From: Desulfocurvibacter africanus subsp. africanus DSM 2603
GTDB taxonomy: Bacteria > Desulfobacterota > Desulfovibrionia > Desulfovibrionales > Desulfovibrionaceae
Direction: 5' to 3'
NCBI RefSeq assembly: GCF_000422545.1
Contig: NZ_AULZ01000013.1
Span: forward strand, 1 to 64,000
Length of the DNA stretch: 64,000 bases
In this document: piece after piece, positions 14,468-55,223 of the stretch
Layout of the letters: every line of letters starts with the position of its first letter
Numbering within the stretch: the first letter of the stretch is position 1
Position numbers and translations under genes: made by a program
The notes under the pieces: generated by a model
Databases searched by the model: none
The model's input: the letters and a program-made list of their open reading frames with translations, nothing else
Told to the model about the DNA's origin: nothing

Positions 14468-15772
14468 TTAGAAGCGGTAGCCTACGCTGAGCGCATACAT
14501 ATGAGCGTGGCCGTTCTTGAATGTATTGCTGCTGCCAGCGACGTTCTCATCACTCTGTTCAGCCGTGGGGTTGAACTTTCGGTCGGTGATGTGCAGGTAG
14601 TTGTATGCTAGGTCCACGTCTAGATTCTCAGTGATATGGAAGCCGGTGCCTACGCCGAACATATGTCGGTCATTGGCTGGCACCATGTAGTCGGCATGAC
14701 CATCGGGGATCGGGCTCTCGTCGAAGACATAGCTCGCGCGCAAGTCGAGCCACGCAAGCAGAGCGTATTCGGCGCTGAATTGAAAGCGCCAAACGTCGTC
14801 CCAATCCTTCTGGGATTCATAGGAATTAACAGCGGGATTTCCGCCAATAGCGGGCACAACTGCTTTGTCGTATTCTATCTTCAATTCATCATAGCTGGAC
14901 CAGCGGGTGTAGATCGCATCAAATTCCAGGGAGAGTTTGTCCGTGGGGTACACGGCCACGCCGAATGTATATGAATCGGGAAGGGTGATTGTACCACTCG
15001 CATCGGTGTCATTGAACATGCTGCTATAGTATGCCGCAAGACCAAGAGGCGTTGCGCCTTTAGTGAAGTCAACTTCACCTTTTACCTCTTGCTTGACTTG
15101 GCTCCGATATGTGGCACCAAGGCGTAGCCAGTCTGCAGGAGTGATATGTATGCTCGCTACACCACCGTATCCCCAGCTGTCGCCGTCGAGCTGCGCGTCT
15201 ACATCAGTAGCAAGGCTCGTGGTTCCCGCTACTACAGTAGGATCAACCTTCTTCTTCTGACTGAACTCAAACCACATGATCTCAGGGCCGGCGGCCACGG
15301 ACAGCCAATCAGTCACCTTGACTGCCAGGGTCGGGCTCATGGACAGGCTCTGGATGTTCGCCTCGTACACGTTGTAGCGGCCGGCCCAGTTCTCGTCGTA
15401 CTCGATGCCCAGGCCGTAACGGGAGTAGACACCGAAGCCTAGCCAAAAAGTATCATTCAACTGCTGCGTCGCGTAAAGATGGGGAGGCGTCCAGAATTTG
15501 CTTTCGGCATCGTATGTGGTCCCGTCGATCTCTACGCTCGCCTCGGGATTGATGGTCGTGAAGCCAGCCATGAAGCCCGTGCCTTCCAACTGCGTAATAC
15601 CTGCAGGGTTGTAAGCCAGGGCCGAGGGATCATCGGCTCGACCCACCAGGCCGCCGCCGAGAGCGTTGCCACGAGCGCCGTATTCATACATGGCGAAGCC
15701 GGCGCCGTAGCCGGACGATGCGCCGAATAGTATTAGAGCCGCTGCAATGAGTGCAAGACGAAACGAATGCAC
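14468..15772 (-). CDS. FadL/TodX-family outer-membrane transport protein
   Basis: A 434-residue protein with a GTG start, chosen because AGGAAGAGG lies about seven bases upstream and because this start puts the signal peptide (SFRLALIAAALILFGASSGYG) at the N-terminus. The mature N-terminus has the family segment GAGFAMYEYGARGNALGGGLVGRADDPSALAYNPAGITQLEG, which forms the barrel plug. The C-terminus ends YALSVGYRF. Such porins take up hydrophobic compounds such as long-chain fatty acids or aromatics; the substrate cannot be read from sequence. It is monocistronic with its own promoter and terminator. Confidence 0.88.
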   Translation of the reverse strand: MHSFRLALIAAALILFGASSGYGAGFAMYEYGARGNALGGGLVGRADDPSALAYNPAGITQLEGTGFMAGFTTINPEASVEIDGTTYDAESKFWTPPHLYATQQLNDTFWLGFGVYSRYGLGIEYDENWAGRYNVYEANIQSLSMSPTLAVKVTDWLSVAAGPEIMWFEFSQKKKVDPTVVAGTTSLATDVDAQLDGDSWGYGGVASIHITPADWLRLGATYRSQVKQEVKGEVDFTKGATPLGLAAYYSSMFNDTDASGTITLPDSYTFGVAVYPTDKLSLEFDAIYTRWSSYDELKIEYDKAVVPAIGGNPAVNSYESQKDWDDVWRFQFSAEYALLAWLDLRASYVFDESPIPDGHADYMVPANDRHMFGVGTGFHITENLDVDLAYNYLHITDRKFNPTAEQSDENVAGSSNTFKNGHAHMYALSVGYRF

Positions 15773-15798
15773 GGGCACACCTCTTCCTGCGTTGAAGG

Positions 15799-15828
15799 GT
15801 AATACGAAGGCTGCACTATTTGTATCAA
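15799..15828 (-). promoter_or_regulatory. Candidate sigma-70 promoter of the FadL-like gene
   Basis: On the minus strand TTGATA (15828-15823) and TATTAC (15804-15799) are separated by 18 bp. The -10 lies about 27 bp ahead of the start codon. Confidence 0.45.
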
Positions 15829-15839
15829 GGACTATTTGT
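15815..15839. promoter_or_regulatory. Direct repeat overlapping the FadL promoter
   Basis: ACTATTTGT occurs at 15815-15823 and again at 15831-15839, 16 bp apart, flanked by TACGAAGG at 15803 and 15842. The first copy overlaps the -35 hexamer, so this could be an operator. Inference only. Confidence 0.3.
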
Positions 15840-16096
15840 GGTACGAAGGACTTCTCAGTACAGGACAACACATGAAAACGCCAGAGGAAATAACCTGCAT
15901 ATGGCGGAAATTGCTTTACATGACTAACTATTTAGCTAAAGTCAGGACAAAATCAGACAGGGTTTGCAAAAGCCGTCAAAGGCATGTACTGCTATGCATT
16001 CTAAAATCCGGCGTTGACGCCGAACCAAGTCCAGCCAGCTGGAGCAGGGCGTGCAATGGCTGATTCAGCCAAGGCTCGGCTAATAGCCTATACTCG

Positions 16097-16126: not shown

Positions 16127-16194
16127 CATACGCCATGCCGCCGGCTCTCGCCGGAGTGAGCAAAAACAGCAGTCGGCCGGCATTCGGGGAGTAC

Positions 16195-17001
16195 ATGGCG
16201 ATTCAGGCAGCAATACTAGGTGCTCCGTTTGCTTTCGCAGGTAGACAGATCATCCTTGCCGTCAGGGAGCTCGGAGGGTGGGGCATCTTCACCGGGCTGG
16301 CGTTCTGGCATATCCTGTCCATGCCGTGGCAATTCAGGAAGATACTCGCGCAAGTGTACTTCATCGGCTCGCGCTCCATCTTCGTCATTGCGCTGGTCGG
16401 CATGTTCACGGGCATGGTGCTTGGGCTCCAGGGCTATTACACTCTGGTCAAGTTCGGCTCCGAGGGGGTGCTGGGAGCGCTCGTGGCCCTCTCGCTCATC
16501 CGCGAGCTCGGACCGGTGCTGACGGCCATAATGATCACGGCTCGCGCGGGATCGGCCATGGCCGCCGAGATCGGCATCATGCGCATCTCGGAGCAGATCG
16601 ACGCCCTGGACACCATGGACATCAATCCCGTGCGCTTCATGGTCAGCCCCAAGATGGCGGCTTCGCTATTAAGCTTTCCCCTGCTCACGGCCTTGTTCAA
16701 CGTGTTCGGCATCCTCGGCGGGTACATATCGGGCGTGGCGCTCCTGCACCTGAGTCACGGCGACTACTTCTATCGCATCGAGACGAACGTGGTCATGCAG
16801 GACGTCACCGGCGGCTTCGTCAAGTCGGTGTTTTTCGCCCTGCTGGTCTCGTCCATCTGCTGCTATCAGGGCTACTTCACCCATCTGCGCCAGGACGGAT
16901 TCGGCGCTCGGGGCGTCAGCCAAGCCACAACCTCGGCCGTGGTCATCTCCTGCGTGGCCATCCTCGTCTGGGACTACGTACTCACATCATTTCTGCTGTG
17001 A
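16195..17001 (+). CDS. mlaE: Mla transporter permease MlaE
   Basis: A 268-residue permease. The start at 16195 is preferred because GGGGAG precedes it; an ATG 60 nt upstream in the same frame has no binding site. Five to six hydrophobic segments and the family core GSRSIFVIALVGMFTGMVLGLQGY and SLIRELGPVLTAIMITARAGSAMAAEIG are clear. MlaE pairs with MlaF ATPase and MlaD in the inner membrane to move phospholipids between inner and outer membranes. It is the first gene of mlaEFDCA; mlaF follows after 12 nt. Confidence 0.93.
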   Translation: MAIQAAILGAPFAFAGRQIILAVRELGGWGIFTGLAFWHILSMPWQFRKILAQVYFIGSRSIFVIALVGMFTGMVLGLQGYYTLVKFGSEGVLGALVALSLIRELGPVLTAIMITARAGSAMAAEIGIMRISEQIDALDTMDINPVRFMVSPKMAASLLSFPLLTALFNVFGILGGYISGVALLHLSHGDYFYRIETNVVMQDVTGGFVKSVFFALLVSSICCYQGYFTHLRQDGFGARGVSQATTSAVVISCVAILVWDYVLTSFLL

Positions 17002-17013
17002 GGGAGAGCGCGC

Positions 17014-18255
17014 ATGGCTAGGGAACCATTGATCGAATTTCGGGGCGTGACCAAAGCCTTCGGGGAGCGTGTGATCCTCGACAAGGTCGACCTGTGCATT
17101 TACGAGAGACAGGTCACGACCATCATCGGCAAGTCCGGAGTGGGCAAGAGCGTGCTGCTCAAGCACATCATCGGCCTGCTCACGCCCGACGAAGGTGAAG
17201 TTCTCTTTCGCGGCAAGGCCCTGAGCGCCATGAGCGGCGAGGAACGCAGAGCCGTCAAGCGCCAATTCAGCTATATGTTCCAGCACAACGCGCTCTTCGA
17301 CTCCATGACCAATTTCGAGAACATCGCCCTGCCGCTGCGAGAGAAGACTCGCATGAGCGAGACGGAGATCCGCGAGAAGGTCATGGCCAAGATGAGCCAG
17401 CTCGAACTGGCCGAGGTGCCGGACAAGTATCCATCGCAGATCTCGGGCGGCATGGCCAAGCGCGTGGCCCTGGCCAGGGCGCTCATCACCGATCCGGCCA
17501 TCGTGCTCTTTGACGAGCCCACAACGGGCCTCGACCCCATCCGCAAGAACGCCGTGCTGTCCATGATCGCCCATTACCAGAAGCGCTTCGGCTTCACGGC
17601 CGTGCTGGTGAGCCACGACATCCCGGACGTATTTTACATCTCCAACCGCATAGCCATCCTCTATGAGCGCAAGTTCATCTTCGAGGGTTCGCCCCTGGAT
17701 CTGGAGCAGCTCGATCATCCGGTGGTGGAGGAATTCGCCAACAGCTTGCAGTCCCTCAAGGACGAACTGACCGGCCTTGATACCCGCCGGCGTTTCGAGC
17801 GCCGCTATCTGCGCGGTTTTGCCGGCAGCAAATCCCAGGGCGCGATAATCGTCTTCCGCATTGAGAATCTCGGCTCCGTGGAAGAGCATGTGGGCCACAT
17901 AGCGGCGCAGCATGTCATCCAGTCCCTTGCAAGCATCGTGGACCGAACGGTTGGAGGGGCAGGGTACTCCGCGCGTTTCAGCACGGATGAGATCCTCACG
18001 GTGCTGCCCGAGAACGGGGTGCGCGAGGCCGAAAACATTTGCAAAGAGGTCGGTCGCGAACTGAAGAAACTCGATGTGCTGCAGCACAAGAGTTATCCCC
18101 GAAACTGCTTCAACTTTTCCATCCATGCCGGGGTCGTTCCCGGCCGGCAGGGCGCCGACCTCAAGGAGCTTGCCGCCGGAGCCCTGGCTCGGCAGCGAGT
18201 GCTGGCCCAGCTTGAATGCCAAAACCCGGAGCGCAGGAGCGATATCGCGCAATGA
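17014..18255 (+). CDS. mlaF: Mla ATP-binding protein MlaF with a C-terminal GGDEF-like domain
   Basis: A 413-residue protein; ordinary MlaF is about 270. Residues 1-255 are the ABC ATPase: Walker A GKSGVGKS (39-46), signature ISGGM (143-147), Walker B VLFDEP (164-169) and the H-loop VSHD (199-202). Residues about 276-395 are extra and follow the GGDEF fold order: IIVFRIENLGSV, an alpha-helical part, YSARFSTDEILTVLP (319-332) where active enzymes have aRyGGDEFavllP, then FNFSIHAGVVP as the SiGva strand. The catalytic GG and EF residues are changed, so cyclase activity is unlikely; binding or structural roles are possible. It overlaps mlaD by 4 nt. Confidence 0.9.
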   Translation: MAREPLIEFRGVTKAFGERVILDKVDLCIYERQVTTIIGKSGVGKSVLLKHIIGLLTPDEGEVLFRGKALSAMSGEERRAVKRQFSYMFQHNALFDSMTNFENIALPLREKTRMSETEIREKVMAKMSQLELAEVPDKYPSQISGGMAKRVALARALITDPAIVLFDEPTTGLDPIRKNAVLSMIAHYQKRFGFTAVLVSHDIPDVFYISNRIAILYERKFIFEGSPLDLEQLDHPVVEEFANSLQSLKDELTGLDTRRRFERRYLRGFAGSKSQGAIIVFRIENLGSVEEHVGHIAAQHVIQSLASIVDRTVGGAGYSARFSTDEILTVLPENGVREAENICKEVGRELKKLDVLQHKSYPRNCFNFSIHAGVVPGRQGADLKELAAGALARQRVLAQLECQNPERRSDIAQ

Positions 18256-18719
18256 AAAAGTACACCATGGAAACCTCCGTCGGCATCTTCGTGCTTATAG
18301 GGCTGCTATGCGTGGCCTATCTGACGATCAAGCTCGGCCGACTGGAGGTCTTCGGCGCTGACACCTATCTGCTCAAGGCCCGCTTCAGTTCCGTGGGCGG
18401 CCTGCGCCCCGGCGGCTCGGTGGAGATGGCCGGGGTCAAGGTCGGCAGCATCACCCGCATATACCTGGACCAGGAAACCTACATGGCCATGGTGGACATG
18501 CAGATTGAGAGAAGAATCAAGCTGTCCGAGGACACCATAGCCTCGATCAAGACCAGCGGGCTCATCGGCGACAAATACGTGGCTCTCTCGCCTGGAGGGC
18601 TGGACGAAAGCCTCGCGGAAGGCGATATTATCACAGAGACCGAGTCCGCCCTGGACATCGAGTCGCTGATAAGCAAATACGCCTTCGGCGACGTGGGTGG
18701 GAGCAAGGAAGAAAAATGA
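18252..18719 (+). CDS. mlaD: Mla substrate-binding MCE-domain protein MlaD
   Basis: A 155-residue protein with one N-terminal membrane anchor (about 8-28) and a single MCE domain: YLLKARFSSVGGLRPGGSVEMAGVKVGSI, then KTSGLIGDKYVALSPG. MlaD forms a hexameric ring that carries lipid through the MlaFEDB complex. The true ATG overlaps the mlaF stop as ATGA; mlaC overlaps its stop in the same way, showing tight translational coupling. Confidence 0.94.
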   Translation: MKKYTMETSVGIFVLIGLLCVAYLTIKLGRLEVFGADTYLLKARFSSVGGLRPGGSVEMAGVKVGSITRIYLDQETYMAMVDMQIERRIKLSEDTIASIKTSGLIGDKYVALSPGGLDESLAEGDIITETESALDIESLISKYAFGDVGGSKEEK

Positions 18720-19327
18720 ACGCTCAGAGGGGAGTGATGAGGAAGACTGTTTGCGCCTTGGTTGTGTTTCTACTTATTGGCATGGCCGGGGTTGCGTCCG
18801 CCGCGGAGCCGACGCAGGTCATCAGGAGCGCCGTGGATGAAATCCTTGTGATACTGCGCGACCCCAAGCTCAAGGCCCCAGACAGAGCCGACGAGCAGAG
18901 GCAGCGCATTGCCGCCGTGGCCGAGAAATTCATGGACAAGAAGCGCTTTGCGCAGATCACCCTGGGCCGCGATTGGCGCAAGCTCGATCCGAAGCAGCAG
19001 GAAGAGTTCACGGAACTCTACGCGGACCTGGTGGAGAAGACCTACATCGACCGCATCCGCGAGTATACCGACGAGAAAGTGCTCATAACCGGTGAAACCA
19101 AGGCGAACGACAACAAGGCCGAGGTCAGCACGGTGGTCGTGTCCAAGGGCAAGGAAATCCCCGTGGTCTATCGGATGTACAACGACGGAAGCAGATGGCG
19201 CACGTACGATGTGCTCGTGGAGGGCGTCAGTTTTGTCATGAACTATCGCAGCCAGTTCAATGACATTCTGGCCAAGGGCTCACCCGAGAGCTTGCTGCGG
19301 CAACTACGTCAGAAGGCGAGTTCCTGA
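18716..19327 (+). CDS. mlaC: Periplasmic phospholipid-binding protein MlaC
   Basis: A 203-residue protein with a signal peptide (cut after VASAA, about residue 29). The MlaC/Ttg2D fold is recognised from EKFMDKKRFAQITLGRDWRKLDPKQQEEFTELYADLVEKTYIDRI and the C-terminal YRSQFNDILAKGSPESLLRQLRQK. It shuttles phospholipids across the periplasm between MlaD and MlaA. A second MlaC-family protein, HpnM, is encoded 24 kb downstream in the hopanoid cluster. Confidence 0.94.
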   Translation: MNAQRGVMRKTVCALVVFLLIGMAGVASAAEPTQVIRSAVDEILVILRDPKLKAPDRADEQRQRIAAVAEKFMDKKRFAQITLGRDWRKLDPKQQEEFTELYADLVEKTYIDRIREYTDEKVLITGETKANDNKAEVSTVVVSKGKEIPVVYRMYNDGSRWRTYDVLVEGVSFVMNYRSQFNDILAKGSPESLLRQLRQKASS

Positions 19328-19340
19328 AGCCGGAGGAAGC

Positions 19341-20231
19341 ATGACCCTGATCCGTATGGCCATTGTCTGCGTGCTCGGTCTGGCTACCCTGTCGCACTCG
19401 CAGCAGGCCTTGGCTCTAACTGGAACAGGAGAGCCGCATCGGCCTGAACTGGGCATGACCATGGTGGCCCAGGCCACGGGAGGGGTTATACAGGGCGATA
19501 CCGCCCGCCAGGAGCCCGGAGATGAATTCGAGGATGAATTCTCGGAATACTACGAAGCCGATGACTTAGCGCTGGCCCCGAGCGTGTCCGATCCCTTGGA
19601 GGGATTCAACCGGGCAATGTTCTGGTTCAATGACTACTTCTACTTCTATGCTGCCAAGCCCGTAGCGCGGACATGGGAAGCCGTGCTGCCCCAGCCGTTG
19701 CGCAGGGGCATTTCCAATGCCTTCTACAATCTGCGCTTTCCTATCCGTTTCGTAAACAGCTTGCTGCAGGGTAAGCCGGGACGAGCGGCCCAGGAAACCG
19801 GGCGCTTCCTGCTCAACTCGACTTTCGGCCTGGGTGGGTTGGTCAATGTGGCCAAGGGCGTGGATCTCGATCCGCCCGAAGAGGACCTGGGCCAGACCTT
19901 GGGTGTCTGGGGTATTGGCCAAGGCTTCTATTTGTACTTGCCATTTCTCGGACCCAGTTCGGCAAGGGATCTGGTCGGCGATACGGGCGACTACTTCCTT
20001 GACCCTCTGACCTGGCTGTTCTGGGACTTCGGTGACGAGGACAAGCAGCTCAAGAACTGGTCCGATTCCGAACGTCTGTGGGTGCCCCTGGCCATCAGGG
20101 CCGGCGATAACGTCAACGAACTGTCCTTCCGCCTTGGCGACTACGAGGCCCTCAAGAAGGCGTCCCTGGACCCTTACGCGGCCATCCGCGACATCTACAT
20201 GCAGGCCCGTCAGAACCAAGTGAAGCAGTAG
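19341..20231 (+). CDS. mlaA: Outer-membrane lipid-asymmetry protein MlaA
   Basis: A 296-residue protein with an N-terminal signal-like segment and the MlaA domain starting at SDPLEGFNRAMFWFNDYFY and including RFVNSLLQGKPGRAAQETGRFLLNSTFGLGGL, DLGQTLGVWGIGQGFYLYLPFLGPSS and DPLTWL. MlaA sits in the inner leaflet of the outer membrane and extracts mislocalised phospholipids. Unlike E. coli MlaA, no lipobox cysteine is seen after the signal segment; an acidic linker (about 55-75) follows instead. GGAGGAAGC precedes the ATG. It ends the mla operon. Confidence 0.92.
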   Translation: MTLIRMAIVCVLGLATLSHSQQALALTGTGEPHRPELGMTMVAQATGGVIQGDTARQEPGDEFEDEFSEYYEADDLALAPSVSDPLEGFNRAMFWFNDYFYFYAAKPVARTWEAVLPQPLRRGISNAFYNLRFPIRFVNSLLQGKPGRAAQETGRFLLNSTFGLGGLVNVAKGVDLDPPEEDLGQTLGVWGIGQGFYLYLPFLGPSSARDLVGDTGDYFLDPLTWLFWDFGDEDKQLKNWSDSERLWVPLAIRAGDNVNELSFRLGDYEALKKASLDPYAAIRDIYMQARQNQVKQ

Positions 20232-54362: not shown

Positions 54363-55223
54363 ATGGCCCGCGTTGTTAGCTTGGGCCTGCAAGATGCAAT
54401 GGCTCGCAACTATTCCGCAGACCGGAAATCGGTCTTTATCGGGCGTCCGAATAAGCGCGCCTTTAAACGCATGCTCCAGGGTGCGCTTTTGGGCGTCGGC
54501 GCACCAATGGGCTGGCTTGTAATCAGCGCCGCGACAGGCTTCAGCCAGCATGCCGATAGCACTTACCATTATGCGCTCATGGCCTACATGCTGCTGGGCA
54601 CCATGCTTTCCTTCGGGCTGTTCGGCTGGTACGCCGGTCGCAAGGAGGATCATCTTGCCCAGCTTTCGGTCATGGACCACCTGACCGGAACCTACAACAC
54701 GCGCTTCTTCCACCGGGCCCTGGAGCGAGAGTTCGCCAATTATACCCGCTACAGTCTACCCATGTCCCTAGTGCTCCTGGATCTGGACCATTTCAAGCTC
54801 ATCAACGACACCTACGGTCATCAGTCCGGGGATGTCGTACTGTCCGAAGTCGCCGAGATCATTTGTAGCACTGTGCGCCAGGGCGATACCGTGGCCCGCG
54901 TGGGCGGCGAGGAGTTCGCGGTGATCATGCCGGGTACGACCACCGATAATGCCCTGGCCGTGTCCGAGCGCATTCGCGAGGCTATCAAGTCCCGACCGGC
55001 GCGTTCCCTGGCCGGAACGACCTTCACCGTGCGCGCTTCCCTGGGGGTGGCGGGCACGGACAGAATTTGCCCCCTCTCGGCCACGGAGTTCTTCGCCCGC
55101 GTGGACCGCGCCTTGTATTGCGCTAAGGAACAGGGTCGCGATCGTTCCGTGGTTGCAGAGGAGACCGGCCCTCTTGCAGGCTCCTATTCCGCCATATCTT
55201 CCGAGGGCTCCACGAAATCGTAG
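54363..55223 (+). CDS. Membrane-anchored diguanylate cyclase
   Basis: A 286-residue protein with two hydrophobic segments (about 40-58 and 70-91) and a C-terminal GGDEF domain. The signature is GGEEF at 181-185, with the inhibitory I-site RQGD (172-175) five residues before it, and DHLTGTYNTRFF and LDLDHFKLINDTYGHQSGD upstream. Active c-di-GMP synthesis is expected. The start is uncertain: the ATG at 54363 and another at 54399 both lack clear binding sites. The gene overlaps the cupin gene by 40 nt at its 3' end, tail to tail. Confidence 0.88.
   Translation: MARVVSLGLQDAMARNYSADRKSVFIGRPNKRAFKRMLQGALLGVGAPMGWLVISAATGFSQHADSTYHYALMAYMLLGTMLSFGLFGWYAGRKEDHLAQLSVMDHLTGTYNTRFFHRALEREFANYTRYSLPMSLVLLDLDHFKLINDTYGHQSGDVVLSEVAEIICSTVRQGDTVARVGGEEFAVIMPGTTTDNALAVSERIREAIKSRPARSLAGTTFTVRASLGVAGTDRICPLSATEFFARVDRALYCAKEQGRDRSVVAEETGPLAGSYSAISSEGSTKS

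Follow-up and report, generated by a model that had tools for sequence, protein, structure and literature searches.

The 64,000-nucleotide stretch of Desulfocurvibacter africanus subsp. africanus DSM 2603 that we analysed as a whole (the window; contig NZ_AULZ01000013.1) holds an operon of the Mla phospholipid transport system in the order mlaE-mlaF-mlaD-mlaC-mlaA. The ATPase of this operon, MlaF, continues past its ABC core into a tail that profile and fold comparisons place in the GGDEF family. The features considered here are the following.

16135..17001, + strand: MlaE permease gene (Pfam MlaE, 2.4e-77); the start was set mechanically and the true start may be later
17014..18255, + strand: MlaF, ABC ATPase with a C-terminal GGDEF-derived domain, 413 aa
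17014..17739, + strand: ABC ATPase core, MlaF residues 1-242 (Pfam ABC_tran, 5.3e-34)
17740-18252, + strand: extra C-terminal part of MlaF, residues 243-413, about 170 residues; the ABC core ends near residue 242
17743..17787, + strand: hinge, MlaF residues 244-258 (SLQSLKDELTGLDTR), defined by entropy per column in 63 tails
17758..18174, + strand: GGDEF-like domain, MlaF residues 249-387 (PF00990, AF2 model, GGDEF matches in the PDB)
17974..17994, + strand: degenerate active-site hairpin RFSTDEI in place of RyGGDEF, from alignment to the window's own GGEEF cyclase
18252..18719, + strand: MlaD, short form (Pfam MlaD, 1.4e-21; TIGR04430 above cut-off)
18716..19327, + strand: MlaC (Pfam MlaC, 2.8e-48)
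19260..20231, + strand: MlaA (Pfam MlaA, 2.7e-71); the true start is probably later than 19260
54363-55223: diguanylate cyclase in which the RQGD I-site and the GGEEF motif are intact, from sequence and alignment

The mlaF gene is a single open frame whose stop codon overlaps the start of mlaD in an ATGA at 18252-18255, so that the end of the gene is not an artefact. Its place in the Mla system follows from the adjoining Pfam matches to MlaE, MlaD, MlaC and MlaA, and the core carries a Walker A motif (GKSGVGKS), an ABC signature (SGGMAKR) and a Walker B motif (VLFDEP). This core resembles E. coli MlaF (6xgy, 6xbd; PMC7367683), with about 38% identity over 241 columns, and an AF2 model of the full-length protein finds E. 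coli MlaFB (6xgy) as its best match at a Foldseek E of 1.7e-28. The NCBIfam equivalog model for MlaF (NF008809) is the top-scoring NCBIfam model at 203.7 bits, which lies below its cut-off of 441, a cut-off that appears to be set for closer kin of the E. coli protein. Divergent from the operon, positions 14468-15871 encode an outer-membrane transport protein of the FadL/TodX type.

An earlier reading of this DNA, made from sequence only, had proposed that MlaF is fused to a degenerate GGDEF-like domain of about 140 extra residues, recognised by the order of its segments. The extra part is real, its length is nearer 170 residues, and the segment order was read correctly. By sequence profile and by model the tail is a homologous GGDEF-fold domain, beyond a mere likeness in segment order. 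Pfam GGDEF (PF00990) matches MlaF residues 249-387 at an E of 5.1e-13 (49.5 bits against a cut-off of 23.8), and the tail by itself passes NCBIfam TIGR00254 (41.5 bits against 37.4). Pfam GGDEF is likewise matched at 0.01 or better by 14 of 15 members of the order, and a profile built from 15 tails reaches the GGDEF domain of SadC in the PDB at 1.7e-19, returning the same entries as the structure search. The AlphaFold model of the tail, predicted from an alignment of 15 relatives, has a pLDDT of 88 and a pTM of 0.83; its Foldseek matches in the PDB include SadC (4wxw, E 7.6e-8), PleD and WspR and are all GGDEF domains among the matches listed, and it superimposes on solved GGDEF domains with a VIA Z of 16.1 and an rmsd of 2.9 over 147 residues. 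A fold unrelated to GGDEF, the outcome that would have spoken against the proposal, was thus not what structure prediction returned.

The domain resembles the diguanylate cyclases PleD, WspR and SadC in fold, sequence family and LTGL entry motif, but differs from them in being attached to an ABC ATPase and in having lost the residues of the active site. We compared 87 distinct tails, using the intact GGEEF cyclase of the window as reference and naming catalytic and ligand sites by what we take to be the corresponding PleD residues. Not one of the 87 has the canonical residue at the position of the catalytic metal aspartate, of the second GGDEF glycine or of the guanine-contact aspartate, and GG[DE]E is likewise found in none, so that no tail combines GG[DE]EF with the metal aspartate as an active diguanylate cyclase does. 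In the window copy, ARFSTDEILTVLP does stand at the place of the aRyGGDEF hairpin, as had been noted, and R, E and Q occupy the guanine-contact and metal positions. The I-site (RxxD, five residues before the GGDEF hairpin) is replaced by GGAG, with G and G at the R and D positions, and the earlier statement that both catalytic pattern and I-site are missing from this MlaF is therefore correct. The I-site R and D are kept in six of the 87 tails (family groups f42, f75 and f39), which lie outside the main supported group and close to the base of the tailed clade. Judged by these residues, the tail is no longer a diguanylate cyclase.

What has been retained lies elsewhere in the domain. Across 63 tails, the best conserved stretch by entropy is the hinge (residues 246, 248 and 252-255 of the window copy), whose LTGL corresponds to that of the D-x-LTGLxNR entry motif in GGDEF domains, and the core glycines G294 and G373 are also among the best conserved positions; conservation thus favours the hinge and core glycines over the ligand sites. 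In most close pairs the tail changes more quickly than the ATPase, yet its dN/dS is mostly well below 1: it is below 0.25 in 14 of 15 close pairs with a usable ratio, mostly 0.04-0.21, and reaches 0.59 in one very close pair. The loss of the catalytic residues together with a dN/dS well below one indicates a constrained fold that was kept after the enzyme was gone.

The fusion is widespread in the phylum. A family search for MlaF with the same tail, which the sequence-only reading had suggested as a check, found it in 40 of 297 genomes of the order (two of the 40 partial or in two frames) and in 50 of 395 genomes of the phylum, spread over 19 family groups and counting only matches that run on into the tail. 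Where neighbourhoods were read, mlaE and mlaD flank the tailed gene directly, and mlaC and usually mlaA follow; the exceptions are two loci at which parts of the operon were not found (L126 and L130) and contigs that end early. In one genome (G432, L120), a single mla cluster holds two tailed MlaF genes, each of a different subtype. None of the plasmid records covered 80% of the tailed-MlaF query, and a search of the genome contigs for related loci returned only distant untailed ATPases. Within the window's own family the tailed MlaF is missing from most genomes, and at least four genera hold a close untailed ATPase (L047-L050, in G024, G005, G030 and G009) whose core is 53-59% identical; mlaE, mlaD, mlaC and mlaA were not found near these orphan ATPases within the fetched stretch.

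We built a quick tree of 94 ATPase cores, without the tail; many of its forks stay open, and a single supported clade of 66 rows holds every one of the 58 tailed rows together with eight untailed ones. Among these eight are the orphan ATPases from the family of the window and the MlaF of G617 (L134), a protein of 286 aa in which the first helix of the tail survives as a truncated relic at the end (SLEELRRELTDPYARSRF...); five changes suffice to account for the pattern. Strict monophyly of the tailed MlaF proteins was rejected by an AU test, untailed rows being nested inside, and this rejection of an exclusive tailed clade is expected if there were losses. One old fusion followed by several losses fits the tree and is the simplest reading.

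We propose that the tail is an ancient GGDEF-fold fusion, catalytically dead, that serves as a C-terminal pairing or gating domain of MlaF, a reading to which we give an even chance and in which dimerisation by the tail, its taking the place of the handshake and any regulatory effect are argued by analogy. In E. coli, a C-terminal extension of MlaF of about 25 residues grips the neighbouring subunit and is required, and its loss is largely rescued by dimerisation forced with GCN4 (PMC7367683). The transport components E, F, D, C and A are the same in the window as in E. coli MlaFEDB; unlike E. coli, which has the handshake of about 25 residues together with MlaB, the window has a GGDEF-fold domain after the core and an operon without mlaB. 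The start of the tail falls at approximately the same place in the alignment as the handshake extension. MetN, MalK and ModC also carry a domain appended after the ATPase core, and these C-terminal domains pair below the ATPases (PMC7367683); the full-length MlaF model aligns with MetN over about 350 columns. Unlike the tail, the C-terminal domains of those proteins are ferredoxin-like or TOBE, and a survey of 379 ABC structures names no GGDEF domain at the C-terminus (PMC7367683). Because the handshake is required in E. coli, the C-terminal domains of other ABC ATPases pair and the start of the tail matches, we favour a role in pairing or gating. The domain would have been fused to MlaF in an early member of the phylum, starting at the site of the handshake, and retained since. 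Below the transporter it would join the two copies of MlaF, or make their spacing depend on a ligand or partner, and MlaF may thereby assemble on MlaE and turn over in operons without mlaB. Against this proposal stand the untailed operons of the same phylum that also lack MlaB, the faster evolution of the tail and its losses.

The absence of MlaB was followed in several ways. No STAS gene was found by Pfam in the mla operon of the window, no STAS_2 domain lies within 20 kb of the tailed gene among the matches listed for 30 tailed genomes, and a fuller STAS_2 list for 13 tailed genomes and eight with untailed operons placed none near either among the matches listed. E. coli MlaB as query found no relative in 60 fetched neighbourhoods. 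The untailed mlaEFDCA operons of the phylum (L133, L135, L136 and L146-L149) likewise have no nearby MlaB among the matches listed. The absence is therefore not specific to tailed operons, a one-for-one replacement of MlaB by the tail is rejected as a rule, and Mla evidently needs neither of them. The distribution of MlaB among diderms is sparse (PMC10665443), and its presence is thus not defining for the Mla core. Elsewhere in the source genome, a second transporter of the MlaE family (L035, C39:336000-345000) has a permease with an N-terminal STAS fusion, together with an untailed ATPase of 256 aa and an MlaD-type protein of 385 aa.

Other roles for the tail must be weighed against pairing or gating. 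GGDEF domains that lack cyclase activity are known from FimX (3hva) and LapD (3pjw), both of which are among the structural matches of the tail; their GGDEF domains are enzymatically inactive and, unlike the present one, are joined to EAL and other signalling domains rather than to a lipid-transport ATPase. Like the inactive GGDEF domains of hybrid proteins, the tail might bind another protein, such as a sensor or an active diguanylate cyclase, and so recruit Mla to a place or signal. A fold kept despite catalytic loss and a hinge that is its best conserved part are consistent with such binding, but no conserved partner gene was seen in the operon beyond mlaE, D, C and A, and we consider it rather unlikely. 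A tail that senses a ligand, binding c-di-GMP or another nucleotide to switch lipid transport on or off, is in our view unlikely. The GGDEF fold argues for it, as do the 21 GGDEF domains above cut-off in the source genome, since with these c-di-GMP is probably made there. One of the cyclases is the GGEEF protein at 54363-55223, which had been called functional and is indeed intact in sequence, and whose hydrophobic N-terminal part looks membrane-anchored. Against binding of c-di-GMP by the window copy stand the facts that it keeps none of the metal, guanine-contact or I-site residues, that both aspartates are lost in every one of the 87 tails and that the RxxD pair persists in only six. The suggested tie of the ATPase to c-di-GMP by nucleotide sensing is consequently unsupported and, on its residues, c-di-GMP control of the window MlaF is unlikely; the structural domain named as the alternative is the better fit. 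The six relatives that retain R and D allow a historical variant, which we regard as quite unlikely: the ancestral tail may have been a c-di-GMP receptor that coupled outer-membrane lipid transport to the messenger through RxxD, the tail having lost binding in the window's lineage and become a constitutive pairing domain. If this were true, the early-branching forms in f42, f75 and f39 would be c-di-GMP-controlled ABC lipid transporters.

A tail that is decaying and no longer has a function would agree with its higher rate of change, relative to the ATPase, in most pairs, and with the losses and the truncated relic in G617, but is very improbable in view of the full-length open frames in 19 family groups, the low dN/dS of most pairs, the confident fold and the ATGA overlap with mlaD. 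More improbable still is a tail that responds to redox state or metal through two recurrent cysteines (C365 and C402 in the window copy). The first position is C in 34 of 63 tails, the second in 38 and both in 29, but both are missing from the f4 tails of genus group g46 and an association independent of the tree is not demonstrable from the few informative pairs (median sign-test p 0.5), on which ground the pair was rejected as a redox switch.

The Mla ATPase, the GGDEF fold and the C-terminal regulatory domain of ABC ATPases are each known, and their combination was not found described. In the literature searched, outside which most subscription journals lie, there was no description of an MlaF-GGDEF fusion and co-mentions only. 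In Desulfovibrio alaskensis G20, the operon Dde_2297-2301 encodes homologs of MlaF, MlaD and VacJ/MlaA, and strong fitness defects are seen for it when phosphate is limiting, in starvation or with SDS (PMC5193443), which provides an assay within that group of sulfate reducers. MlaF with a GGDEF-derived domain across the phylum would be a concrete second solution, in which the tail probably helps to assemble or control the transporter rather than to make a signal. If this is borne out, a fold from signalling would have been recruited to an ABC ATPase.
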